Below, piece by piece: positions 8,281 through 38,733 of a stretch of 38,733 nt of DNA. The position numbers were made by a program, and so were the translations under genes. This stretch comes from an uncultured Deferribacteraceae bacterium (GTDB taxonomy: Bacteria; Chrysiogenota; Deferribacteres; CAMZNJ01), in assembly GCA_947313855.1 (NCBI GenBank), contig CAMZNS010000008.1, positions 1 to 38,733 of the forward strand. The letters are read 5' to 3'. Below the pieces are notes generated by a model. That model made no database searches and was not told where the DNA came from. It was given only the letters and a program-made list of their open reading frames with translations. Positions within the stretch are counted from its first letter, which is position 1. Each line of letters starts with the position of its first letter.

Positions 8281-11200
8281 TTACGACAAGGGGGATATTT
8301 TATCAGAATTTTGGAGCAACAAAAATACGCGAAGTGCCTCGGTGGACGACCAAGCTTGGGCGTATGTGCCTCGTGTGTAGTGTGGTGCGTCGGCGTCTTT
8401 CACTTCATCCATAAAGCCCACAGCACCGCTAGAGTAGGGTTTGACCATGGAGATAAGCATGGATAGGCAGGCGTCGCGGTGTGCTGTTCCCCCCAAGGTG
8501 AGAACGCTTTCGATGAATAGTGGTAACATGAATGTCCAGACAGTACCGTTGTGGTATGCGAGTTTGCGTTGTGTGTCTTCGTCCCCTTCGTATGTTCCGC
8601 GGTAGAGGTTGCGGATATTTTCCACGGGGTGACCATCTTTTGCATAGGTGTACAGGGGAACGCCAAGGGTGCGGTTGGAGAGGGATCGGATACCCCCTTC
8701 CACCACTAGATCCCAGCATTGTGCCACAACGCTACGACTTTTTTCGGGGTTAATGATTCCTAGGGAGATGAGGTAGAGTTGGTTGGGTCTGAGGGCGTCG
8801 TCGAGTAGTCCGTCTTGTGGGCGTTGTCCGTGGTGGGCATGGATGCAGTCGCCGTAGTAGCCGAGGTGTTCGTGGTAAAACAGTGTGTCCACGGAGCTTT
8901 TAACGTTTGTGTACATGGTTTTGTAGCGTTGGTTGTTGGTGATGGTGTGTGCGAGGTTGAGTGCGTATGCCCAGAGTGCTTGTATTTCGATGGGGAAGCC
9001 TTGTCGTGGTGTTCCGGCGGGGTAGTTGGTGTCCATCCATGTGTAGTGTGAGGGGCTGAAGATGAGGTGTGTATCGGTGTCCATGTAGACGCCTACGGGT
9101 GTGCCGGCGATGTACCCTTCTACAATGGATATGATGGTGTGTGCGAGTGTGTTGCCGTATTTGTTGTGTTCGTTGTGTTCGTTGGTGCTGTGCACTATTT
9201 CGCTGAGGATGCTACTGTTCCCCACTTTGTGGATGTATTCGCCGACAGCAAGGATGAATAGTAGTGGAGCGTCGGAGGTTTCGCGATTGTTGGAGTTGTT
9301 TCCGGCAATCATGTTTGGTAGGGTGCCGTTGAGTTCGAATTTGGCGAATGTGTGTAGAACTTGGTGGCTTTCGTGTAGGAATCCGCCAGCGATGTAGCCT
9401 CTCAGGCAGATGAGGGTGTCTCGTCCCCAGTCGAGGAACCATGGGAAGCCAGCAATGACGGTGTATCCGTCGTCACGTTTTGCGAGGAATCGCCAAGATG
9501 AGTGTCGTAGTAGTATTTCGAGTTGTGAGGCGTTGTTTGGGTTGTTGTTGTTTGTGGGCAGTACGGAGTGTAGTTTTTGGCTGTTGTATTTGTTGGTAGA
9601 TTGTTGTGATAGTTGTTCTTGGAGTTGGTCGAGTAGAGTGTTTAGGTGTAGTTTGTCTTGTGTTGCGTGGCAGGTTATGGTTCCTTTGTTGTGTTTAGTT
9701 AGGTCGAGTTGGAAGAAGCCGGGTGAGTGCAGTGCGATATGTTCGCCTAGTGCTCGGCTGTGGTCTTGGGCGGTGTAGTTGTTGTGTTGTGATTCGATGC
9801 TGTGGTGGAAAGTTGCTTCTTGTGATTCGATGGAGACGTTGTAGTTGTTGTTGATGTCGAACTGCAGTGATTGGGCGTCGTATTTGAGGTGGTTTGCCAT
9901 TTCGTTGGGGAGTATTCCGGGTTGTTGATGGTGGTTTGTTCGTCTGTCGATGAAGGGTCGCATGATGATGGTGAAGTTTGGGTGTGTTGTGTTTAGGTAT
10001 TTTTGTAGGTTGGGTGAGGTTTCTAGGAGTTCCACGGCGATGCTGACACGGTTTGTGGTTTCGGAAAATATAACGTCGAGGCGAATGGGTATTTCGCCGT
10101 ATTCGCCCATGTGTGGTGTGAATATCCATGATAGGTGGTTTGTTACGGATGCGGTGAAGGTTTTTTGTACAGTTTTGTTGAGTGGCGAGGAGTAGTTGTT
10201 GATGCGTAGCCAGATGTCCATTTTGCTCAAGACGATGGTACGGTCTACGGGGTATTTCGGGTTGCAGTTTGCGGCTAAGAGAGCGTCGTATTTGCTGTCG
10301 TACTCCCCCCAGCTCCCGCGGATTTGGGCGTATCCGCCAAGGTTGTTGGTGCAGACCCCCACAGGGTCGATGAGGTGGTTGGAGGCTAGGGGATCGCTTT
10401 GGGTGTGTTTTTCGAGGTTTGCGGCTAGGGTTGTGTTGTTGCTGAGGAATACGCTGTGGAGGGTGGTGCTGATATTGGCACTGTGGTCGGTGTGGTCGGT
10501 GTGGTCGGTGCTGACTAGTTTGCTACGGAGCATGGCGATGTGGTAGCTACGGTACTGTTTCTCATCCATGTCGCCCATGGGTGGCACGATAAATACGTAG
10601 GAGTTGTCATTGAGTTTGGTTGCGAATGTGTTGGCGTTGCGGTATTCCTGAACGTAAAAGGGTAGGTTGTGTTTGACAACAAGGTAGTAGTTGGTGGGTA
10701 CGATGATACGTTTCTGTTCGTGGGAGCGGTTGTAGTGCGGCGTATCGGTTGTGTTGTTGGTGTTGGTGTTGGTGTTGGTGTTGTTATTATTTAGGTCGAC
10801 AAAGATGGCTGGTGGTATGGGTGTTTGGTGTAGTTTGCAGAAGAATTTTGCCATGTTGGTGCAGAAGAGGTGGTAGAGTGTTTCGTTTTCCTGTTGGTTG
10901 TGCACTTTGGTGACAATGTCGTGGTAGAGGTCGAGCCTCATCTGGTATTCCATGATTGTTTGGTTGATGCCTGGTATCTGTTCGAGTTGTTGTAGTTGTG
11001 CGAATTGTGTTGTGCTTTCGCTGAGGCAGAGTATTGTTAGTGGTGGTAGTGTCATGGTGAAGTTGTTGTGTTGGTTGCTGTGTAGGGTGTATTTCTCTCC
11101 TGTTAGTAGGTCGACCGTTTGTAGATCTGTTTTTGTGTTTGATCCGTTGCACCATTTTGTGTTGTGAGTATTTTTGAGATATTGGTTGAGGGAGAAAGTT

Positions 11201-13023
11201 GTTGTTGCTTGTTGGTTTGATGGGTTTGCGAGTATGACAAGTGGTAGGTTCATGCTATCTTTGTACATGATGGGTGGTTGTATTTCGCCTTTGTTTGCTG
11301 CGTGGTGTAGAGTGTCTTGGTTTCGGTTGAAGTATTTGACGTATGCTAGTGTTTGGCAGTTGTGGTTTTGGTTTATGTTTTTGGTTTGTGAGTGTGGTGT
11401 AAAGCATGGGTGTGTTGCGAGTAGGGTGTTGAGTTGGCAGAGTTGTTGTGTCATGTTTGGGGATTGTCCCCATGATATTGAGCTTGCTTTGTGTACGTCG
11501 AATTTTTCGGTGGCGAACCATTCCACACCGCTGTGAATTCCGTAGCTTCCGTTGCTACTGAGTAGTGCACAGAGTTGTACGCGAAATAGGGCGTAGTTGT
11601 GTCCTTGTGTTGCGAGTCTGTTGTTGTCGTGTGTTTCGGCGAAGTTGAGTAGCATCCCCCCTTTGCTGAGGTAGTTGTCGGTGTTGCTGATGTATCGGTT
11701 GATGTTTTCGGCGGAGTATGTTTGGAATAGTTCTGAGTAAGCCCAGTCCATGTGTGCTTCAGTGAGTAGTGCGTAGGTGTCGTCCCATGATCCGCCTAGT
11801 CCTTCGAGTAGGAATAGTGTGTTTGGGTAGGTGGTTCTTACTCGTGCGATGATGTATGCCCAGATACGTTTGTCGATCATGTATCCGGCATCGCATCGGA
11901 AGCCGTCCACACCTGTTTTGCACCAGAAGAGGAAGACTTCGGCCATGTAGTCCATGAGTTCGGTGTTGAGGTCTTCGAACCGTTTGGAGCCGAGTTCGCC
12001 GTAGTGTGTGGTTGTTGTGGCGGAGTTTGTTGCGTTGTTTGAGTAGTAGGTGTTGTATTGGGTTTGCATTTGCGAGAGTTTGTTGGATTTGGAGTATTGT
12101 AGTTCGACTAAGTCGCTCCATTCGATGCCCCACGCACCGGGTGATTTGAAGTTGTTGTTGTTGCGAGCGAACCATTGTGGGTAGCGGTTGTGCGCGGATG
12201 ATGCCCAAGAGGTGTGGTTTGCGGGTAGGTCGAGGAATACGCGTGCCCCTTTGCCGTGGATGTGTGCTACAAGGTTGACGAATTGTTGCACAGGTGTGTA
12301 CTGTTTGCTGAAGGTTGCGTAAGCGGGGTCAACGGAGAAGTAGTCTTGTGGTGCGTAGTATGAGCCGTAGTCGCCCATTCGTCCGTAGTGGACTGGTACG
12401 GGGAAGATGGGCAGAAACATGAGGATGTTGAATTTGAGGTTATCGATGATGTAGTTGATGTGTGGCAGGGAGCTTTGGAATGTGCCTGATGGGTGGTTGG
12501 AGTCATGGTTGTTCCCCGTCGTGTTTTCGTCTGTGTTTGTGTTTGCGTTTGCGTGGAATACTCGCGGGGTTAGGGAGTACACAGCGTTGTAGGATGAGTA
12601 GTACGAGGGGATAACTTTCACGGTAATATTTTGGTCGATAAGCCAGTGTGTTTTGCCTGTGGAGTCTGTGTAGTAGAGGGTGCATTCGTAGTTGCCTGAG
12701 TCGCTCACGGGTACGTGTATGTTGTAGGTCGCCCCCTGAGTGATTCCCTGAGTGCTTCCCTGAGTGTTCCCCTGAGTGCTCGGTGTTAGCTGATGGTTGC
12801 TCCACCCGATGGACGACAGTGTTTGCAAGTTGCCGTATGTGTTGACCAAGTGTTTGCGTCGTTCGGGGATACCCCCCAAGTTTGTGCGTAAAAACACTTC
12901 ACCTTGGATGGGTTGGCTAAATGTTACTTGGAAGTTGATGATATCGCCACTGTAGGCGGCGATATGTGCACCGGAGTTGGGTTTGGTGGTTACGTCGATG
13001 GTTTGGTTGTGGATATGCAACAT
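8281..13023 (-). CDS. Glycogen debranching enzyme, GH13 + GH133 (GDE) fusion
   Basis: A 1580-residue two-module enzyme. Residues 1-150 are a beta-rich leader. Residues ~185-560 are a GH13 barrel with GFRCDAGY (Asp ~377), LLEGLGGSW (Glu ~407) and NFAETHDNNR (~463), fitting a 4-alpha-glucanotransferase. Residues ~930-1580 are a glycogen debranching (amylo-1,6-glucosidase) module with FPWFLDWGRDTLICLRG (~1195), YTWMDTNYPAGTPRQGFPIEIQALW (split here: key residues Trp-Met-Asp and Glu-Ile-Gln) and GTVWTFMLP. The layout recalls the bifunctional eukaryotic-type debranching enzyme. Low-complexity inserts come from tandem repeats: TQG units (~82-97), Asn/Thr runs (~745-760) and TDH units (~840). AAGGGG seven bases before ATG 13023 supports the start. 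It lies upstream of glgP on the same strand, with 304 bases between coding regions. Confidence 0.9.
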   Translation of the reverse strand: MLHIHNQTIDVTTKPNSGAHIAAYSGDIINFQVTFSQPIQGEVFLRTNLGGIPERRKHLVNTYGNLQTLSSIGWSNHQLTPSTQGNTQGSTQGITQGATYNIHVPVSDSGNYECTLYYTDSTGKTHWLIDQNITVKVIPSYYSSYNAVYSLTPRVFHANANTNTDENTTGNNHDSNHPSGTFQSSLPHINYIIDNLKFNILMFLPIFPVPVHYGRMGDYGSYYAPQDYFSVDPAYATFSKQYTPVQQFVNLVAHIHGKGARVFLDLPANHTSWASSAHNRYPQWFARNNNNFKSPGAWGIEWSDLVELQYSKSNKLSQMQTQYNTYYSNNATNSATTTTHYGELGSKRFEDLNTELMDYMAEVFLFWCKTGVDGFRCDAGYMIDKRIWAYIIARVRTTYPNTLFLLEGLGGSWDDTYALLTEAHMDWAYSELFQTYSAENINRYISNTDNYLSKGGMLLNFAETHDNNRLATQGHNYALFRVQLCALLSSNGSYGIHSGVEWFATEKFDVHKASSISWGQSPNMTQQLCQLNTLLATHPCFTPHSQTKNINQNHNCQTLAYVKYFNRNQDTLHHAANKGEIQPPIMYKDSMNLPLVILANPSNQQATTTFSLNQYLKNTHNTKWCNGSNTKTDLQTVDLLTGEKYTLHSNQHNNFTMTLPPLTILCLSESTTQFAQLQQLEQIPGINQTIMEYQMRLDLYHDIVTKVHNQQENETLYHLFCTNMAKFFCKLHQTPIPPAIFVDLNNNNTNTNTNTNNTTDTPHYNRSHEQKRIIVPTNYYLVVKHNLPFYVQEYRNANTFATKLNDNSYVFIVPPMGDMDEKQYRSYHIAMLRSKLVSTDHTDHTDHSANISTTLHSVFLSNNTTLAANLEKHTQSDPLASNHLIDPVGVCTNNLGGYAQIRGSWGEYDSKYDALLAANCNPKYPVDRTIVLSKMDIWLRINNYSSPLNKTVQKTFTASVTNHLSWIFTPHMGEYGEIPIRLDVIFSETTNRVSIAVELLETSPNLQKYLNTTHPNFTIIMRPFIDRRTNHHQQPGILPNEMANHLKYDAQSLQFDINNNYNVSIESQEATFHHSIESQHNNYTAQDHSRALGEHIALHSPGFFQLDLTKHNKGTITCHATQDKLHLNTLLDQLQEQLSQQSTNKYNSQKLHSVLPTNNNNPNNASQLEILLRHSSWRFLAKRDDGYTVIAGFPWFLDWGRDTLICLRGYIAGGFLHESHQVLHTFAKFELNGTLPNMIAGNNSNNRETSDAPLLFILAVGEYIHKVGNSSILSEIVHSTNEHNEHNKYGNTLAHTIISIVEGYIAGTPVGVYMDTDTHLIFSPSHYTWMDTNYPAGTPRQGFPIEIQALWAYALNLAHTITNNQRYKTMYTNVKSSVDTLFYHEHLGYYGDCIHAHHGQRPQDGLLDDALRPNQLYLISLGIINPEKSRSVVAQCWDLVVEGGIRSLSNRTLGVPLYTYAKDGHPVENIRNLYRGTYEGDEDTQRKLAYHNGTVWTFMLPLFIESVLTLGGTAHRDACLSMLISMVKPYSSGAVGFMDEVKDADAPHYTRGTYAQAWSSTEALRVFLLLQNSDKISPLS

Positions 13024-15081: not shown

Positions 15082-17394
15082 TTAGCGTTGTAGCAGGGTT
15101 AAAACTTTGTTTGAGTTTTGGTTAGACTGTGCGAGGAGTGCGATGGCAGCCTGTTGTAGCACTTGGTAACGTGTTAGAGCTGTTGTTGCTTGTGCAATAT
15201 CGGTGTCCATGTAGTTTGCGCGGGATGCGTCGAGGTTTACTTCTGTGGAGGAGATGTTTGTTTCGGCACTTTGTAGTCGTTGTATTTTGATGCCGATATC
15301 GACGCGAACTTTGGTTGTGGTATCCATGGCTTTGTCCACTGCAAGGAGGCTTTTTTCGGCATGATCCATGGTGCTGACATCGGAGTTGGCGAGCCCGAGG
15401 GATTTTAGTGTAACTTCGGGTATGGATACGTCTAGGATGTCTCCTTTGGATATGCCTATCTGCATGATGGTGCGATTTTCGTCCACGTGGTAGTTGAATT
15501 CGCGGTTGAGTGAGTAGGGGTCTTCGTGGTGTGTTACACGATTGTTGGCACTATCCCACAGTGGGTTAACGCCGATACCGTTTTTGAGGTACACGCCGAT
15601 ACCGTCGACGCCGTGGGTTTCGCTGCTAGATGTTACTGTGTCGAGTACAAGTTCTTTCGTGTCGTTGTTGGTGATTTTTATATTGTAGGAGTGTTCTGTG
15701 GGTTCGGAAACAACGGAGAAGCCTAGTGCGTTTACGAGTTGTTCCCCAGAGAGGAAGGATATCTCCCCTTGAAACCCAGCCAACGCCGATTGCAGTATGA
15801 ATGTTCCTTCAACAGTGTTGGTTCCGTCGGGGGTCGGGATGCTGACAAACTTGCTGAGGTTTTTGTCTACAGCGAAGGAGGAGCTACCGCCGTTAGCATT
15901 GACGATGGCATCGATAAATTTTTGGTTAAGCCGTTCCATGGTGTCCCCCGGATCGATATTGATCGTAGCCAGAGTATCACCTATCTTGAACGATATTGCG
16001 GGGCTAACGTCGAGAACAGCAACGCCGTTGGCATCGTAGAAGCTAGAGATATCGCGAACAGTTGTGGTGCGAGTTGCGGTTGTGCCGCCACCACGGACAA
16101 TAATCTCGGAGCTACCAGTAACAGTTTGGGGTACGCCGGTGGTAGCGTTGTTGTTTTCGGCAAACTCTATGGCCATGGAGCCAACGCTGATGGCACCACT
16201 GCTGTCGAGTTCGGCAATGAAGTAGTTAACGCGGTTTGTGTCGATGATGCCGTCGAAGTTATCCTGTGGCGTAAGGGAGGAGGCACCGGTGTAGGTAACC
16301 ACGGCACCAGTGGCACCAGTGGGGGAGGTTAGGGCGATTGTACCGCCACCACTTGCGGCGAAGTCGGTGGTTACGCCTGTTCCAGCACTAACGCTCATGA
16401 GGATCTTGTCCCCCTGCTCGATAGCCCCTAGGGAGGTGAGGTCTAGGGATACGGAGGACGATCCTGCTAGTACGGTGAAGGAGGTGGCAGTTGCGGTCCC
16501 GTCTGTCCAAGCACTTTGCTCGCCTGTTATGGCATCGACGAACCTTGCTCGGTAATCGAGACCAGCACCTAGGGAGTTGCCGGAGCTGAGCCACTCAAAC
16601 TCAACATACCCACTGTTTGTGGAGACCGGCTGAGTTGTACCGGAAACATCTATCGTCCAAGATGAGTTGCTACTGCGGTATTCACCGGTAATGTTTGCGG
16701 TGGTATTTTGGTGGTTGCTCCCGATATCAACGGTGTAGTTGCCGGTGTCGGCATGGAGGTTGTTGGGTGCGTAAATGTCGTGTATGTTGGTGGTGTTGGT
16801 GGTGTAGTCCAAGCGGGATGAGATGGCGTCGGGGGTTAGTTGCATAATGTTCGACTTGTAAACAGCGTTGGTGCCCGCCTCCACAGACAAGTCAACTTTG
16901 TAGTTGCCACCCTGAGGAAGACCTGTGATGGCCAAGTCGATACCTGAGTTGTCGGTGTTGTAGAGAGCCGTGCTTGAGCCGTCGAAGAGGGTTTGACGAT
17001 TGAACTCGGTTGTAGAGGCAATGCGATCGATCTCGTTGCGTAGTTGGTTGAACTCCTGATTCATGTAATCACGATCGTCGGCGGTGTACGTTCCGTTGGA
17101 AGCGGCAACAGCAAGCTCTCGCATGTTGAGGAGAAGATCGCTAATGGCTCCGATACTCCCCTCGGCTGTTTGCAACATGGACATGCCGTTTTGAGCATTG
17201 GCACGTGCTTGACGTAAGCCGTCGATTTGCAGGGTGAGGAACTTGCTGATGGACATGCCAACAGGGTCGTCGGATGAGCGATTGAGGCGTATCCCAGACG
17301 ATAGCTGTTCAACGGTGGATGATAACCCTTTTCCGAACCCGGAAAGATGAACCTGAATAGACGATGATGTTAAGTTTGGAGTGATTCCAACCAT
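15082..17394 (-). CDS. Giant divergent flagellin
   Basis: A 770-residue filament protein. The N-terminal D0/D1 region (residues 1-150: VEQLSSGIRLNRSSDDPVGM, ARANAQNGMSMLQTAEGSIG, MRELAVAASNGTYTADDRDYMNQEFNQL split here) and the C-terminal D1/D0 region (last ~100 residues, ending SNQNSNKVLTLLQR) are clear. Between them lie ~500 residues of Gly/Ser/Thr-rich beta domain, far larger than in common 280-500-residue flagellins. It differs from the other three flagellins at both ends (N-terminus MVGITPNLTSSSIQVHLSGF, not [10 protein letters not shown]), so it is a separate paralogue. The ATG at 17394 follows AAGGGGGC by seven bases. A sigma-28 promoter lies 89 bases upstream and no flagellar gene adjoins it. 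Confidence 0.93.
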   Translation of the reverse strand: MVGITPNLTSSSIQVHLSGFGKGLSSTVEQLSSGIRLNRSSDDPVGMSISKFLTLQIDGLRQARANAQNGMSMLQTAEGSIGAISDLLLNMRELAVAASNGTYTADDRDYMNQEFNQLRNEIDRIASTTEFNRQTLFDGSSTALYNTDNSGIDLAITGLPQGGNYKVDLSVEAGTNAVYKSNIMQLTPDAISSRLDYTTNTTNIHDIYAPNNLHADTGNYTVDIGSNHQNTTANITGEYRSSNSSWTIDVSGTTQPVSTNSGYVEFEWLSSGNSLGAGLDYRARFVDAITGEQSAWTDGTATATSFTVLAGSSSVSLDLTSLGAIEQGDKILMSVSAGTGVTTDFAASGGGTIALTSPTGATGAVVTYTGASSLTPQDNFDGIIDTNRVNYFIAELDSSGAISVGSMAIEFAENNNATTGVPQTVTGSSEIIVRGGGTTATRTTTVRDISSFYDANGVAVLDVSPAISFKIGDTLATINIDPGDTMERLNQKFIDAIVNANGGSSSFAVDKNLSKFVSIPTPDGTNTVEGTFILQSALAGFQGEISFLSGEQLVNALGFSVVSEPTEHSYNIKITNNDTKELVLDTVTSSSETHGVDGIGVYLKNGIGVNPLWDSANNRVTHHEDPYSLNREFNYHVDENRTIMQIGISKGDILDVSIPEVTLKSLGLANSDVSTMDHAEKSLLAVDKAMDTTTKVRVDIGIKIQRLQSAETNISSTEVNLDASRANYMDTDIAQATTALTRYQVLQQAAIALLAQSNQNSNKVLTLLQR

Positions 17395-17482
17395 GGCAAA
17401 TGCCCCCTTTGAGTGTTTCAATAGAGTTGCACAATTGTGAGTCTGCTAGTTTTGGCAGATGGTAATAGTAGTTATGAATGAT

Positions 17483-25436: not shown

Positions 25437-25512
25437 TAGGGCTGTGCCCCCCCATGACCACGCTACCATACTCCCACACTCCCATTGCGACGAAAATTGT
25501 GAGGTTCACATT

Positions 25513-27450
25513 ATGTCTTCATTGCTAGAAAAAAACTTGGCGGTACTCAACATAAAGTACAGCGATATCGTATCGCAAATACGCGAAATCGAAGCATCTG
25601 AAACAAGGCGATACACTGTTGTAAAAAGGGGGGGCGGGGAGGCGAACCTATTCGACAAAATCACAAACGAATTTGTCTACGATCCTAGTCGTCCCAAAGG
25701 TTCGTCGCTGGATGATGTGCGTCAATCAAAAACATACCTCAACAGGTTGGTTTATGTTCTTGGGTTCGGGCTAGGCTACCACATGAACGCCTTTGTCAGT
25801 ACCAAATACACAGACAAAGCCACATTCTTCATAGTGTACGAGGCAGACGTGGAGATACTGTTTCATGCACTCTCCGAACGCGACCTGACGGCATTCTTAG
25901 CACACCCTCGACTAAAAATATTTGTGGGCAAGGTTGACGACAACAACGTTTCACGTACCCTTGTGGAACTATTCAACGGCGATATGGCAGACCTGAAATA
26001 CTACATAAAATCACAGTCGTTTGTGGAAACACCATACCTTTTCAGTGCCTACAAAGACAGGTACTCCACGTTTTTCAGCGGGATGAGAATGGCGTACGCC
26101 AACATCCTAAACCACTACGGTAACGATCCCGAAGACTCACTAATCGGTATCGTCAACACAATCAAAAACATCGACGTTATCATCAAAAGCCCCGGTATCG
26201 ACTCGCTGAAAGGGAAGTTTGCAGGGCGGGTCGGCGTTGTGGTGTCCACAGGTCCATCGCTGAAGAAAAACATACACCTGTTGAAGAGTATTCAGGATCA
26301 GGTTGTAATTGTTTCCGTGGATGCGTCCGTGCGTATTTTGCAGGAGTATGGCATCAAACCCCACGCCGTAACCTCGTTGGAACGTGTACTAGAGACCGCC
26401 AAACTGTTTGACGGTGTCGAACCCGGCTTTGTTGAAGACACATTGTTCACCGCATGCCCTGTGGTACGACCAGAAACATACGCCAACTTCCCCGCAAAAC
26501 CGGTGATTGTCTACCGTGACTTCGCAACATTCAAATGGCTTGGAATAGAACGTGGACCATTAATAGAGATTGGACCATCATCATCCAACATGGCGTTCAG
26601 TATCCTCGAATACATGGGATGCGACAAGATTATCCTCATCGGACAGGACTTCGCCTACGCACCTGATGGCAAAACACATGCGGAAGGAACAACATACGGA
26701 AGTCAGCAAGACAAACAGTTCGCACATGCTTATGTGGACTTGGAAGTGGAGGGGAACTATGTTCCGACACTGCGTACAACCCAAGTGTGGGATATGTTTC
26801 GCAGATACATGGAGAAGGATGCACTGAAGTTTGCAGGTGGTGTCATCAATGCCACTGAAGGGGGGGCTAAGATAGAAGGGACAGAGCTGTTGGCACTTTC
26901 CGAGGCAATAGACAAGTATGTTACGCCCAAGGGGTACGCAAACGATGTAACAAGCATAATTAACGACAGCACCACCCCCCTTAGCCAAAGTGTTATGGAT
27001 AACGACTTGGCGATGGTGAAAAAGCGTCTCAAAGAGGGGGTATCGTACTGCCAATACACAATGGGTAGATATGCTGAAGTTATTAGCATTAACGATCAGA
27101 TTGAGGCGGGGAAACTCAACCTAGCAGGTGGCAACTCCAGATCTGTTGATCACATGAAGCTAACGGATGCTTTCAATAAGGTGCAGAGCAGTATGGTGGG
27201 CATGTTTGCTGAGGAGAGTTTCTACCTTATTATCATGCACTACGTTCAGCCCTACCTTGTCAACATTATCATGGATTTGTGCAATATTCAGAACAGCGTC
27301 GAGGATGTGCAAGAGCGTATGCTTCGCTACATCAAGCTTTCAGCTGTGTCTTCCGTAACCATGATTCAGCTAATTGAAAAGCTAGAGGATTTATTCGCTT
27401 CTTCCCTTGAGAGTCTGGCGGATAACCACTTGGAGGCAGCTGAGGCTTAG
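25513..27450 (+). CDS. Maf-type motility accessory glycosyltransferase (DUF115)
   Basis: A 645-residue protein of the MAF_flag10/DUF115 family. Members transfer nonulosonic-acid sugars to flagellin in several bacteria. The signature region is at ~235-300: GRVGVVVSTGPSLKKNIHLL, QDQVVIVSVDASVRILQEYG and IKPHAVTSLERV; later GPSSSNMAFSILEYMGCDKI and LIGQDFAYAPDGKTHAEGTT also fit. The start at 25513 has GAGGT seven bases upstream; a GTG at 25444 would add 23 residues coded over a C7 run. Two G7 runs lie in the gene (25628-25634, about codon 40; 26869-26875). Gene context with flgF-flgG-flgA and four large flagellins supports flagellin as the acceptor; the sugar is not known and no nonulosonate synthesis genes are in the window. 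Confidence 0.88.
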   Translation: MSSLLEKNLAVLNIKYSDIVSQIREIEASETRRYTVVKRGGGEANLFDKITNEFVYDPSRPKGSSLDDVRQSKTYLNRLVYVLGFGLGYHMNAFVSTKYTDKATFFIVYEADVEILFHALSERDLTAFLAHPRLKIFVGKVDDNNVSRTLVELFNGDMADLKYYIKSQSFVETPYLFSAYKDRYSTFFSGMRMAYANILNHYGNDPEDSLIGIVNTIKNIDVIIKSPGIDSLKGKFAGRVGVVVSTGPSLKKNIHLLKSIQDQVVIVSVDASVRILQEYGIKPHAVTSLERVLETAKLFDGVEPGFVEDTLFTACPVVRPETYANFPAKPVIVYRDFATFKWLGIERGPLIEIGPSSSNMAFSILEYMGCDKIILIGQDFAYAPDGKTHAEGTTYGSQQDKQFAHAYVDLEVEGNYVPTLRTTQVWDMFRRYMEKDALKFAGGVINATEGGAKIEGTELLALSEAIDKYVTPKGYANDVTSIINDSTTPLSQSVMDNDLAMVKKRLKEGVSYCQYTMGRYAEVISINDQIEAGKLNLAGGNSRSVDHMKLTDAFNKVQSSMVGMFAEESFYLIIMHYVQPYLVNIIMDLCNIQNSVEDVQERMLRYIKLSAVSSVTMIQLIEKLEDLFASSLESLADNHLEAAEA

Positions 27451-32716: not shown

Positions 32717-32733
32717 TCATAAAACTTTTATGA
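32717..32733. repeat. Palindrome between convergent ubiX and flagellin
   Basis: TCATAAAA-C-TTTTATGA is a perfect 8-bp arm inverted repeat. It could be a weak terminator or a protein site; the AT-rich stem makes terminator function doubtful. Confidence 0.6.
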
Positions 32734-32765
32734 GGACGTATTGACTTAGAGGACGTATTGACTTA
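32732..32765. repeat. 17-bp direct repeat over the flagellin stop
   Basis: GAGGACGTATTGACTTA at 32732 and 32749; the second copy's final TTA is the stop (TAA on the minus strand) of the frameshifted flagellin. Confidence 0.93.
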
Positions 32766-34674
32766 AGAGGGACTAAGGTTAAGCAAGAGGGACAGGGACG
32801 ATTGGGGTAACATGTTTGCTTGCACCAGCATGGCAGTGGCAGCATCGCGTAGCACCTGATTGCGTATGAGTAGTGTTGTTTCGGCAGCAATGTCAGCGTC
32901 CACTATCCTTGAGTGTGCAAATATCAAATTTTCACGCATTGTGTCGAGATTGACTGTTGTGTATTGCAGTCGGTTCATTTGTGCCCCAACAGTTGCACGT
33001 GAGCTCCCCATTTTTGTGAGAGCACTGTCTATTTTGGATAACGCGATTTGTGCCTCTTTCTGACTGTAAACGTACGCATCGTTAATTCCTAGCCCAGCTC
33101 CGTCCAGTTGTTTTATGGAGATGCCTATTTGTTGTCCAGCGTTTCCGCCGATTTGCATGTTGGTGCTTTTGTCTGTAAGGTGGATAAATGCGACTGTGTT
33201 GCCACCTTTGAAGGCGATGTTCCCGTTGTTGGCAGTAGCTGTTACGCCTGCGTTTAAAACTTCGATGGTGGTTCCTTGAATGGAGTTGCTGAGGTAGGCT
33301 GAGGCAAGTGTTTCTTGTGCGATGATGTTCCCTGTTCGCATGTCTGAAGTGATAATGCTTACGACTGAATTCAGTTCTTTGATACTTTTGTCGAATCCGA
33401 AGGCGTTGACGATTTCGTCTGATCCAACGATTGCTAGTGTTGAGGATGATCCGAGTAGTGCGGTGCGTAATTGTAGTGTGCCTGTTGTGAAGTGTACCAT
33501 TACTTTGCTGAGATCTTCCAGTCCGTCGTAGTTATTTTTTTTGGTGAGTTCCCCAGGGTCGTACTTTACGGCTATGGTTCCGCCACCGATTTGTGAGTGT
33601 TCCCCCCCGTCGCTATTGATAACGATTACGCCACCGCCGTCTGCTAGGTTTGATCCACTAGTATCCCCTTGTATGCGTACGAGGGTTTTCGATGTTAGGG
33701 CGATGTTGCCACTGATACCAGCCTTTCCAGCTGCGAAAGCGGTTCCTGATTCGAGTTTGAAGTCCACGTCGAAGTTGTTGTTGTTTTGTATTTGGGGGAT
33801 GGTAATTGTGCCGAAGATTGAGTTGAGGTCGCCGTTAGCAGTTCCTTTGGCGAATTCACCGATTTTTATTCCGGGAAGTTTCTTCATATCGTTGCTTACT
33901 TCGTTTTTGAGGTATGTTGCCACGGCAGAGATGAGGAATGTTTCCAGTGCTGTTGTGATAATTTGTTCGTATGTATCTTTGATACCGGAGTCGTCAGTAA
34001 CGTGTATGTTGTAGAAGTCGCCTTTGGTTCCGAAGGTTTGTCCTTCGAGTGTGCCGACGTAGGCGATGTTTTCTTTGTCGCCGGTAACACTTGCGGCGAA
34101 TTCGCCACCTTTGAGACGCATGATATGTGAGGAGTATTGTGCCGATCGTCCGACTGCTGTTGAGATGTCCAGTCGGTAGTCGCCAGCACGAACGTTTGAG
34201 TTGATGATGAGGTTGACTTTGTCGGTTGAAGAGGACCAGAGTGCTGTAGCGTTGCCGTTGAGGAGTTTTTTTGTGTTAAATTCGGTGGCACCGGAGATAC
34301 GATTAATTTCGTTTTTGAGTTGGTTCATCTCTTTTTGCAGTTCGGCACGGTCGGATGTGGTGTAAGTGCCGTTGCCAGACTGAACAGCTAGTTCACGCAT
34401 TCGAAGTAGCATATCGCTAATGGCTCTCATCCCCCCCCTCAGCCGTTTGCAAGAGTGAGATGCCGTCTTGAGCATTGCGAGAAGCCACAGCCGCTCCCAT
34501 GATTTGCGACTGTAGTTTTTTGGAAACAACGAGTCCAGAGGCATCGTCGGAAGCGTGGTTGATACGCATTCCTGACGATAGCCTCTCCATGGACTGTCGT
34601 AACGCAGCTTGTGAGCTGGTTAAGTGATTTTGTACCAAGAAGGCAGTCGGGTTGCTAAAAATCCTTAAAGCCAT
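32763..34674 (-). pseudogene. Flagellin, frameshifted at a G8 tract (possibly phase-variable)
   Basis: The start (ATG 34674, AGGGG upstream) encodes [36 protein letters not shown] and ends wrongly after [12 protein letters not shown]. The rest, in the -1 frame from [18 protein letters not shown], is intact to 32763. The break is at eight G on the coding strand (34431-34438); seven would restore GAG-GGG-GGG-ATG and a 636-residue flagellin. D0/D1 ends match the 34734-37139 gene, and the variable centre differs. The C-terminus, QSSLSLLLNLSPS, is six residues longer than in its paralogues (QSALTLIR), because a 9-bp unit GTCCCTCTT is duplicated at the stop. It lies 59 bases downstream of another flagellin on the same strand and would share its transcript. 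It may be a decayed copy, an off-state variant or a one-base sequencing error. Confidence 0.9.
34431..34438. repeat. C8/G8 homopolymer at the flagellin frameshift
   Basis: Eight C on the plus strand, flanked by CAT and TC. The paralogue 34734-37139 has GAAGGCGGAATG at the same codons and the 15082-17394 gene has GAGGGGAGT, so the long run is specific to this gene. Confidence 0.95.
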
Positions 34675-34701
34675 AGTGAATAACCCCTATTTCACTAGCC
34701 T

Positions 34702-34722
34702 GCAGTATCTTTAGCGTACTGC
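34702..34722. repeat. Inverted repeat between the two tandem flagellins
   Basis: GCAGTA (34702-34707) and TACTGC (34717-34722) with a 9-base loop; no T-run follows on either side. It could reduce read-through or mark RNA processing. Confidence 0.5.
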
Positions 34723-34733
34723 TTCCCTAGCGA

Positions 34734-37139
34734 TTAACGTATGAGTGTCAACGCTGACTGTGGCAATGCGTTTGCTTGTGCCAACATAGCCGTTGCTGCT
34801 TGTTGCAACACTTGGTTACGTGTGAATAGTGTTGTTTCAGCCGCAATATCTGCGTCAACAATCCTTGAGTTAGCGGAAATAAGGTTTTCACGCATGGTGT
34901 CAAGGTTTGTTGTTGTGTACTGCAAGCGGTTAACTTGCGCACCCACGGTAGCACGGGAGCTGTTTACCCTTGTAAGAGCACTGTCGATTTTGGAGATAGC
35001 TTCGCCAGCTTTCTCTTGGTCGTAAACATATGCACTTTCGATACCCAAGGCTTTGCCGTCGAGCTGTGCAACGGAGACGCTAATTGTTTGTCCAGCGTTA
35101 CCACCAATTTGCAGGTTAGTGCGGTTGTCCACAAGGTGGATGGTTGTGGTTTCGTTGCCACCCGTGAAGGATATGACGTTCCCTGCTGCCGATGCACTAA
35201 CACCTGCGTTGAGTACTTCGATTGTTGTGCCCTCTATGGAGTTGCTAAGTCGTGAGAACGATGTAGTTTCGGTGCTGACAACTTTGCCTGTTCCAAGGTT
35301 GGTGGTTGTGGTGTTAATGATGGAGTTTGCTTCAGCGGTGTGTTTGCTGAAGCCGAAGGCGTTAACAAGCTGTTCGCCACCAACGGTTGCGATTGTTGAT
35401 TCGTCTCCGAGGATGGCAGCACGCATGTTGAGCGTACCAGTACTTCCATCAAACAGCACAAGGTTGTTGTTGATTGTTCCTGCACCGGAAACAGATCCTG
35501 CAAGCTCTTGAGTTGCACCCATCTCCATTGTAACGAGGGCTTGTGTTAGTGCTACGTCGAAATCTCTGAGGGTCATGCTATTTTGTGTGTAGACATTTGC
35601 TTGTTGTCCGTTACCGCCGTAAATTGTTAGGGTTTCGATACCGGGTAAAACGTCCACACCGTCGGCATTGATGAAGTTATTGAGCTGACCAAGTCGTGTT
35701 GTGGCAGTTGCCAGCTCTCCACCTTCACGTACTACAACTTGAGCATCGGCACCAGCAGCGGCTGTACTACCAGTAGCACCATTTGAAGTTTCGTTGAAGG
35801 AGATCTGAAGCTTACCGTAGTCGACCTCTCCGGTAGTGCTGTTTAGTACAGTAAAGTGGTACTGAGCGTCGATAGTGTCTTCAACGCCGTCAAGGTTGTC
35901 TTGGAGTCCGAGTTCGCCAGCGCCATAAAATGCAGTAACACTACGTCCAGCGTTGTTTGCTGCAACATTTAGAATAGCATTGCTTCCGGCAGCACTAAGA
36001 GATATGGCACCACCACCATCTTGGAGTGCAGCAATGTCTGCTGTAGCATTGCTTTGTATAGCAACGAGAGCTTTGGTGCCTACAGCAGTGTCGGATGCAG
36101 AGCCCGCAGTAAGAGAGCCCAATCCCACTGTGATGTCGAAGGTTGCTGTTCCAGCGGCATTAGCAAGGGAGATGGTTGCTGTTGCTGTTCCAGCGCCATT
36201 TACGAGAGTTGCTGTTCCTTCAAGAACTTCACCTGTTTTGGCATCAACAAATTTATAATTGAGAGTGGCAATAGTGCTGGTTGCTCCTGTTGTGCCACCA
36301 TCGGTCAAAGCACCAACAGTTACTTCGAGGTAACCAGATCGGTCAACGTCAGCAGGAGTTGCTGATCCGACCATTTCGAAGTTAGAGGATGTTCCCTGAG
36401 CTTTGAAGGTAGATACTGTAGTTGCTCCTCCATTTGCAGTGGCATGTTGCCCTACATTTATGTTGTAAGCATCACCTTTGGTTCCAAAGGTTTGTCCCTC
36501 TAGTGTGCTCACGTAAGCGATGGAGCGTTGGTTGGGAGAAGTTGCTGTGTTTATGCCAGCTGCAAATTCGCCATCTTTAATACGCATGATGTGGGAGGAG
36601 TATTCTGCTGATTTGCCCACGGATGTGGTGATATCGAGTTGGTAGTCCCCCGCCTGTACGTTGGAGTTAACAATAACGTTAACTTTGTCGGAGGATGATG
36701 ACCACAACGCTGTTGAGTCACCGTTGAGTAGTTTTTTGGTGTTGAATTCGGTTGCGACAGTAACGCGGTCAACCTCTTGTTTGAGTTGATCCATCTCTTT
36801 TTGCAGTTCAGCACGGTCGGATGTGGTGTATGTGCCGTTCCCTGCCTGTACAGCAAGTTCACGCATACGAAGGAGCATGTCGCCTACGGCTTTCATTCCG
36901 CCTTCAGCAGTTTGTAGCATGGATATGCCGTCTTGAGCGTTGCGGGCAGCCATTGCGGCACCCATGATTTGTGCTTCGATCTTTTTGGATACAACTAGTC
37001 CTGAAGCGTCATCGGATGCGTTGTTGATCCTCATTCCTGAAGAGAGCCTCTGCATAGACGTGCTGAGAGTTTTCTGTGTATTTGTCAGGCTGTTCTGTGC
37101 AGTAATCGCTGTTGGGTTACTAAAAATCCTTAAAGCCAT
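34734..37139 (-). CDS. Giant flagellin
   Basis: An 801-residue filament protein. N-terminal D0/D1 ([60 protein letters not shown]) and C-terminal D1/D0 (SSRATVGAQVNRLQYTTTNL, ETTLFTRNQVLQQAATAMLA, QANALPQSALTLIR) are complete. A ~450-residue Ala/Gly/Thr-rich beta insert (residues ~190-640) is the variable, surface-exposed part and could be a glycosylation target of the Maf enzyme. The ATG at 37139 was chosen because GGAGG lies seven bases upstream; an ATG at 37154 would overlap it. Transcription probably starts from a sigma-70-type promoter at 37373-37401, and a CsrA-like hairpin covers the ribosome site. It leads into the frameshifted flagellin. Confidence 0.95.
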   Translation of the reverse strand: MALRIFSNPTAITAQNSLTNTQKTLSTSMQRLSSGMRINNASDDASGLVVSKKIEAQIMGAAMAARNAQDGISMLQTAEGGMKAVGDMLLRMRELAVQAGNGTYTTSDRAELQKEMDQLKQEVDRVTVATEFNTKKLLNGDSTALWSSSSDKVNVIVNSNVQAGDYQLDITTSVGKSAEYSSHIMRIKDGEFAAGINTATSPNQRSIAYVSTLEGQTFGTKGDAYNINVGQHATANGGATTVSTFKAQGTSSNFEMVGSATPADVDRSGYLEVTVGALTDGGTTGATSTIATLNYKFVDAKTGEVLEGTATLVNGAGTATATISLANAAGTATFDITVGLGSLTAGSASDTAVGTKALVAIQSNATADIAALQDGGGAISLSAAGSNAILNVAANNAGRSVTAFYGAGELGLQDNLDGVEDTIDAQYHFTVLNSTTGEVDYGKLQISFNETSNGATGSTAAAGADAQVVVREGGELATATTRLGQLNNFINADGVDVLPGIETLTIYGGNGQQANVYTQNSMTLRDFDVALTQALVTMEMGATQELAGSVSGAGTINNNLVLFDGSTGTLNMRAAILGDESTIATVGGEQLVNAFGFSKHTAEANSIINTTTTNLGTGKVVSTETTSFSRLSNSIEGTTIEVLNAGVSASAAGNVISFTGGNETTTIHLVDNRTNLQIGGNAGQTISVSVAQLDGKALGIESAYVYDQEKAGEAISKIDSALTRVNSSRATVGAQVNRLQYTTTNLDTMRENLISANSRIVDADIAAETTLFTRNQVLQQAATAMLAQANALPQSALTLIR

Positions 37140-37142
37140 GTG

Positions 37143-37159
37143 TATAACCTCCATGTTAT
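37143..37159 (-). promoter_or_regulatory. CsrA-like hairpin over the flagellin ribosome site
   Basis: ATAACATGGAGGTTATA on the minus strand: ATAAC and GTTAT pair around a loop that shows GGA, and ACATGGAGGT matches the CsrA consensus ACANGGANGU at every position. GGAGG is also the Shine-Dalgarno. The same 17 bases recur in the divergent flagellin leader. Confidence 0.7.
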
Positions 37160-38153: not shown

Positions 38154-38733
38154 ATGGCATTTAGGATTTACAGCAACCCAACGGCTATTACAGCCCAAAA
38201 CAACTTGACGAAGTCACAAAATATGCTGAGCACATCGATTCAACGACTATCATCTGGACTACGTATTAATAGTGCGGTGGATGATGCTTCCGGCTTGGCA
38301 GTTTCGAAGAAGATTGAAGCACAAATTAACGGGCTAGCAATGGCGAACCGCAACGCACAAGACGGCATATCCATGCTGCAAACTGCTGAAGGTGGCTTGA
38401 AAGCCATCGGCGACATGTTGCTTCGTATGCGTGAGTTGTCCGTGCAGGCTGGTAACGGCACATACACCACGTCCGATCGTGCTGAGCTACAAAAAGAGGT
38501 TGACCAATTGAAACAAGAGGTTAACCGCGTGTCCAGTGCTACCGAGTTCAACACAAAGAAGCTCTTGAATGGTGATGCTACAGCGTTGTGGTCATCATCT
38601 TCCGACCGCCTCGAAGCTATTATTACTGGCGAGGTTGACGAAGGTAACTACCGCGTAGATGTTTCTGCTCAAGGTGGTCAGGGTGCTGTTTACAAGTCTC
38701 ATATTATGCGTTTGTCTGCCGATCAGTTCGCTG
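38154..38733 (+). CDS. Flagellin, N-terminal part (runs off window)
   Basis: The 193 codons seen encode [60 protein letters not shown] and TTSDRAELQKEVDQLKQEVN: D0 and D1 of a flagellin closest to the 34734-37139 gene. The 3' part, including any variable domain, is outside. The start follows the CsrA-like hairpin and GGAGG; sigma-28 promoters drive it from far upstream. Confidence 0.93.
   Translation, partial: MAFRIYSNPTAITAQNNLTKSQNMLSTSIQRLSSGLRINSAVDDASGLAVSKKIEAQINGLAMANRNAQDGISMLQTAEGGLKAIGDMLLRMRELSVQAGNGTYTTSDRAELQKEVDQLKQEVNRVSSATEFNTKKLLNGDATALWSSSSDRLEAIITGEVDEGNYRVDVSAQGGQGAVYKSHIMRLSADQFA

Follow-up and report, generated by a model that had tools for sequence, protein, structure and literature searches.

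An extra G in a short homopolymeric run divides a flagellin gene of an uncultured Deferribacteraceae bacterium, probably as a recent loss of a redundant copy

Analysis of a 38,733 nucleotide stretch of DNA from an uncultured Deferribacteraceae bacterium (contig CAMZNS010000008.1; hereafter ‘the window’, at its full length) revealed a flagellin gene, which we term flaA, that is divided between two reading frames by a run of eight G residues on its coding strand. We believe that flaA is probably a recent null, generated by slippage in a flagellin that was redundant and may already have been rearranged. If so, it illustrates on a small scale how a reduced genome loses one of its redundant flagellins. 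A sign that flagellin sequence may have been exchanged between sister symbiont species is the more useful by-product of the analysis.

The genome comprises 1.34 Mb in 49 contigs, with a GC content of 48.5% across the window, and displays about 87% nucleotide identity to that of a sister species. The bacterium is probably a shrimp-gut symbiont; Deferribacteres genomes assembled from the midgut of Rimicaris exoculata (from Illumina HiSeq3000 reads, using MEGAHIT) are 1.25–1.36 Mbp in size and 46.7–47.6% GC, with average nucleotide identities down to 87.0% (PMC9636832). Long, imperfect arrays of short repeats (HATRPRHTTT and similar) are found near contig ends (L104:2500–3100 and L140:1400–1992) and are probably what breaks the assembly. 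A search of the whole window produced no Rfam match. The window also encodes a 1580-residue protein (8281–13023) that combines an alpha-amylase catalytic domain with a glycogen debranching enzyme (GDE_N and GDE_C), adjoining genes that resemble glycogen synthase, branching enzyme and alpha-glucan phosphorylase.

The G8 run occupies positions 34431–34438 on the minus strand (and thus appears as C8 on the plus strand), exactly where a first-pass annotation of the sequence had placed the splitting of a flagellin. The open reading frame upstream of the run (34417–34674, minus strand) is brought to an end by the run and encodes 85 residues, 82 of them native, that were assigned to Flagellin_N in a domain search (E=1.6e-20); this corresponds to the short N-terminal fragment that had been anticipated. 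Downstream of the run, the shifted frame (32763–34430, minus strand) extends from an ATG at 34430 to position 32766, with its stop codon at 32763–32765, and contains 555 stop-free codons that encode the remainder of Flagellin_N and a full Flagellin_C domain. By its domains flaA is a bacterial flagellin, with both signature domains present and divided between the two frames. The description of both flanking frames as intact was therefore accurate, as was the predicted length of the product if the frame were restored (81 + 555 = 636 residues). The 59 bp gap that separates flaA from the upstream gene flaB (34675–34733, minus strand) is nearly the same in the sister species and places a ribosome-binding-like AGGGG sequence 5' of the flaA ATG. 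The gene contains a further run of seven G on the coding strand (33602–33608), which keeps the frame and has the same length in the sister species.

The two species were compared using one genome for each, namely the window genome and a second genome of the same genus (G001). The flaA orthologue in the latter is found in the same gene order, contains seven G residues at the run, and encodes 942 residues in one uninterrupted frame. Since the orthologue with seven G is open throughout, the single extra G can be identified as the cause of the frame break, in agreement with the first-pass annotation; the window gene is thus broken where its sister orthologue is intact, as in a frameshifted pseudogene. 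That annotation had suggested that tract length be determined in related genomes, and had considered that eight G in relatives together with other disabling changes would indicate a dead gene: we did find other damage in the window copy (described below), but the related genome carries seven G rather than eight. The seven-G form is read as GAG GGG GGG ATG within a conserved EGG motif, such that the run results from two GGG glycine codons that follow GAG; in a set of 21 genes of the window, GGG accounts for 149 of the 747 glycine codons. The claim that the run is missing from the paralogues held for flaB (GGC GGA) and flaC (GGT GGC) but not fully for flaD, in which the same site is GAG GGG GGA and forms a six-G run.

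The genome encodes five flagellin-family genes, four of which (all except flaA) are intact. The paralogue directly upstream of flaA, flaB (34734–37154, minus strand), encodes 806 residues. The flaC gene (38154–38733, plus strand) runs off the contig and continues on contig C42 to give an intact protein of 806 residues; the two contigs are joined by the last 141 bases of the window (38593–38733), which are identical to the end of C42 on its reverse strand. A fourth flagellin-family gene of the window (15082–17421, minus strand) encodes 779 residues, and flaD is located on contig 17.

In addition to the frameshift, comparison with the sister orthologue revealed two large in-frame deletions and an altered C-terminus in flaA, which the earlier annotation had missed, and no further stop or shift in the gene. 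The first deletion removes 534 bp (178 codons), with its junction at 33848..33849 (minus strand) and a 5-base microhomology (TTCGC); the second removes 399 bp (133 codons), with its junction at 33489..33490 (minus strand) and a 6-base microhomology (CACAAC). By reading, the missing stretches are present in flaB, and the deletions therefore correspond to derived losses in the window copy. Both preserve the reading frame, an outcome with a chance of 1 in 9 if the gene had already been dead. The C-terminus of the window copy (32763–32810, minus strand) reads LPQSSLSLLLNLSPS before its stop codon, and is five residues longer than the corresponding end (LPQSALTLIR) of the sister copy and of flaB. 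The last approximately ten codons and the first bases past the stop are unalike between the two species, and no second copy of the flaA 3' end was found when both genomes were searched. A 17-bp tandem repeat, comprising two copies of TAAGTCAATACGTCCTC on the minus strand (32732–32765), begins at the flaA stop codon and was not seen in the sister species.

The AlphaFold model of the full-length protein indicated that residues 551–770 are the best-predicted part of its outer region (block means of 72–90). The second deletion (residues 574–706) begins within a predicted strand and takes out most of that best-predicted outer domain, and the confidence of the flanking pieces drops from about 77–89 in the full-length protein to about 43–55 in the shortened one. 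These models, which are based on 11–12 sequences and are of low confidence, point to the second deletion as structural damage to the protein. The outer domains of flagellins are freely variable, and the deletions therefore need not kill the protein.

Substitutions between the two species still appear to be constrained in flaA. The 80 codons that precede the run contain 2 synonymous and 0 non-synonymous differences, while the region after the run displays a dS of 0.12 and a dN of 0.020. For the whole gene (dS 0.11, dN 0.018) the dN/dS ratio is about 0.16, as compared to 0.06 and 0.08 in two other orthologous flagellin pairs, with all three values far below 1. Given this ratio, and as the 555 codons contain no additional stop or shift, either the frame break is recent or the gene remains in occasional use. 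A clean remaining frame, in-frame deletions and a dN/dS below 1 would also be expected if the gene were still read from time to time.

The synonymous divergence of flaA (0.11, and 0.04 in the first 80 codons) is itself three to four times lower than in 20 other gene pairs from the same two species (0.30–0.62), comprising 19 other genes shared in the contig and the flaD pair located elsewhere. The low-divergence comparison covered positions 32830–34863 of the window and L037:1–2980 of the sister. The 3' end of flaB is also near identical between the two species, and the block of low dS stops close to the 3' end of flaA, with dS rising to 0.37 there. Flagellin codon bias was considered as a cause and rejected, as the flaD pair and the pair corresponding to 15082–17421 display dS values of 0.36 and 0.49. 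The pattern of divergence suggests that the flaB–flaA stretch may have been exchanged between the two sister species after their split; the main alternative would be that the low divergence originates from a chimeric contig.

A pattern search of the genome identified 83 G/C runs of at least eight bases; the stretches taken around them contain 84, with 47 inside likely reading frames. For each run, codon usage was scored on both sides in the surrounding stretch and doubtful cases were read in all frames, with three loci (L089, L091 and L099) judged by eye only. No shift was seen at any of the other 46 coding runs, leaving flaA as the only clear frame change. Nine candidates for a second split gene (L082, L089, L091, L099, L123, L126, L129, L135 and L140), which had been flagged by a simple frame test or by a low coding score, were rejected: upon reading in all frames, most gave an apparently intact gene end, including those of an aminotransferase, LspA, FlgI, an SbcC-like protein, a carboxypeptidase and a DUF2914 protein. 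The tracts are not concentrated in surface or variable genes, and many of the 47 are found in housekeeping genes; runs of 8–10 bases are carried by DnaK (C9), RF-1 (G9), FlgI (C10) and LspA (G9), as well as by Lon, SecD, a Mur ligase, FlhA, MotB and chorismate synthase. A run of eight is ordinary in this genome and is tolerated in usually essential genes, and the presence of unshifted runs in housekeeping genes indicates that a run of this kind is no marker of a switchable gene.

Six coding runs that are eight or nine bases long keep the same total length in the sister species, with 0 indel changes, in a comparison that was made only where the sister stretch was available and that is biased to runs that are long in both genomes. 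Among the other runs of at least six bases in the 36 kb that the species share, those that differ do so mostly by substitution rather than by length. MutS and MutL are both present, above cut-off and without stops. The two proteins are usually missing in Campylobacter and Helicobacter, and their absence is not required for phase variation. The window also contains an MptE-like/Maf flagellin glycosyltransferase gene (25444–27450) with three in-frame G/C runs of seven (at 25447, 25628 and 26860); of the seven runs of this length or longer in the window, five are in this gene and flaA. Genes of the maf family are phase-variable in Campylobacter. The longest G/C runs seen in a contig interior are a C11 and a C13 run separated by 9 bases (G000:C10:61965–61997, corresponding to L092:1198–1230), which have no clear coding signal and may represent a promoter-type variable tract.

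The first-pass annotation had proposed the run as a candidate phase-variation switch. In such a reading, the gene would alternate between an on state with seven G and an off state with eight, in a mixed population whose consensus happens to be the off genome. The underlying observations (the frame break, the intact frames on either side and its one-base cause) are all sound; the analysis produced no positive evidence for the switch itself. The only break in the frame is a one-base difference in homopolymer length, tract length alone toggles the frame, and both states are seen, albeit one per species and not within a strain. A G8 run inside a reading frame satisfies the minimum length of seven G/C that has served as a cut-off for Campylobacter tracts (PMC6321876), and so short a run can switch, as illustrated by C. 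coli flhA, in which T8 changes to T7 at 3e-4 and T7 to T8 at 7e-6 (PMC2831843). The purifying selection and the in-frame deletions further suggest recent use of flaA. Against these points, there is no sign of a phasome, as the 46 other coding runs of at least eight bases (many in housekeeping genes) were not seen shifted; the genome encodes intact MutS and MutL; the paralogues do not conserve the run, and codons account for its seven-G form; the same flaA copy has sustained added damage; and the study that used the cut-off itself warns that mutability at such lengths may be under 1e-5 (PMC6321876). We consider phase variation to be unlikely, and somewhat less likely still a broader scheme in which a G7/G8 switch would reversibly turn one filament variant on and off in a gut symbiont whose sister species also trade flagellin alleles. 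Were a switch to be true, this uncultured Deferribacterota symbiont would carry a contingency locus of the homopolymer type within the structural gene for a flagellin.

An error of consensus or assembly, in which the true sequence would have seven G and the contig one too many, appears to us about as improbable as phase variation. The assembly is divided into 49 contigs, the present contig breaks off within a flagellin gene, and the repeated flagellin locus may combine sequence from two close species; however, no shift was seen in the other 46 coding runs of eight to ten bases, corresponding to an upper 95% bound of about 6% on the rate of error per run, and the deletion junctions share 5–6 bases only, too short for an assembler misjoin. 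The 141-base contig overlap, which matches the largest k of MEGAHIT, fits a short-read assembly of that type, in which homopolymer errors at such lengths are few. Partial read-through of the G8 run by transcriptional or ribosomal slippage, producing some full-length flagellin from unchanged DNA, would agree with the clean downstream frame and the low dN/dS, but the sister species has no need of slippage and a minor contribution of one filament protein would add little to the four that are intact. G runs also slip less readily in transcription than do runs of A or T. We regard read-through as very improbable.

The frameshift, the two large deletions and the altered end, taken together, make a newly decaying spare copy likelier than an on/off switch. 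According to this explanation of flaA as a recent null, the gene was originally an ordinary flagellin, as it still is in the sister species, and a replication slip within the pre-existing seven-G run of the EGG motif may have added the extra G. Translation now ends after 85 residues, and the short D0/D1 fragment would probably be degraded, or exported without function. The loss would be tolerated because the four other flagellins are intact.

Several known systems offer comparisons with this locus. Termitispirillum, a Deferribacterota symbiont, encodes up to 40 flagellins, as compared to 0–7 in other Deferribacterota (PMC12887300). The bacterium described here resembles it as a probably host-associated member of the Deferribacterota with several large, divergent flagellins, but its five flagellin genes fall inside the 0–7 range of the other members (PMC12887300). 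The flaA run is similar to the poly-G loci of Campylobacter (cj1295 and maf) and to the poly-T tract of C. coli flhA, in that the length of a mononucleotide run close to the start of its gene changes by one base, the gene belongs to the flagellar system, and on and off forms are both seen. It differs from those tracts in that the flagellin gene itself is affected, the on and off forms are in different species, no switchable gene set is seen, and mismatch repair is present. Unlike the frameshifted pseudogenes found in the reduced genomes of symbionts, flaA is very recent, its frame is otherwise open, and its substitutions still look constrained; like those pseudogenes, it combines a single indel in a short homopolymer with extra deletions in the same copy, next to intact paralogues in a small genome of about 1.3 Mb.
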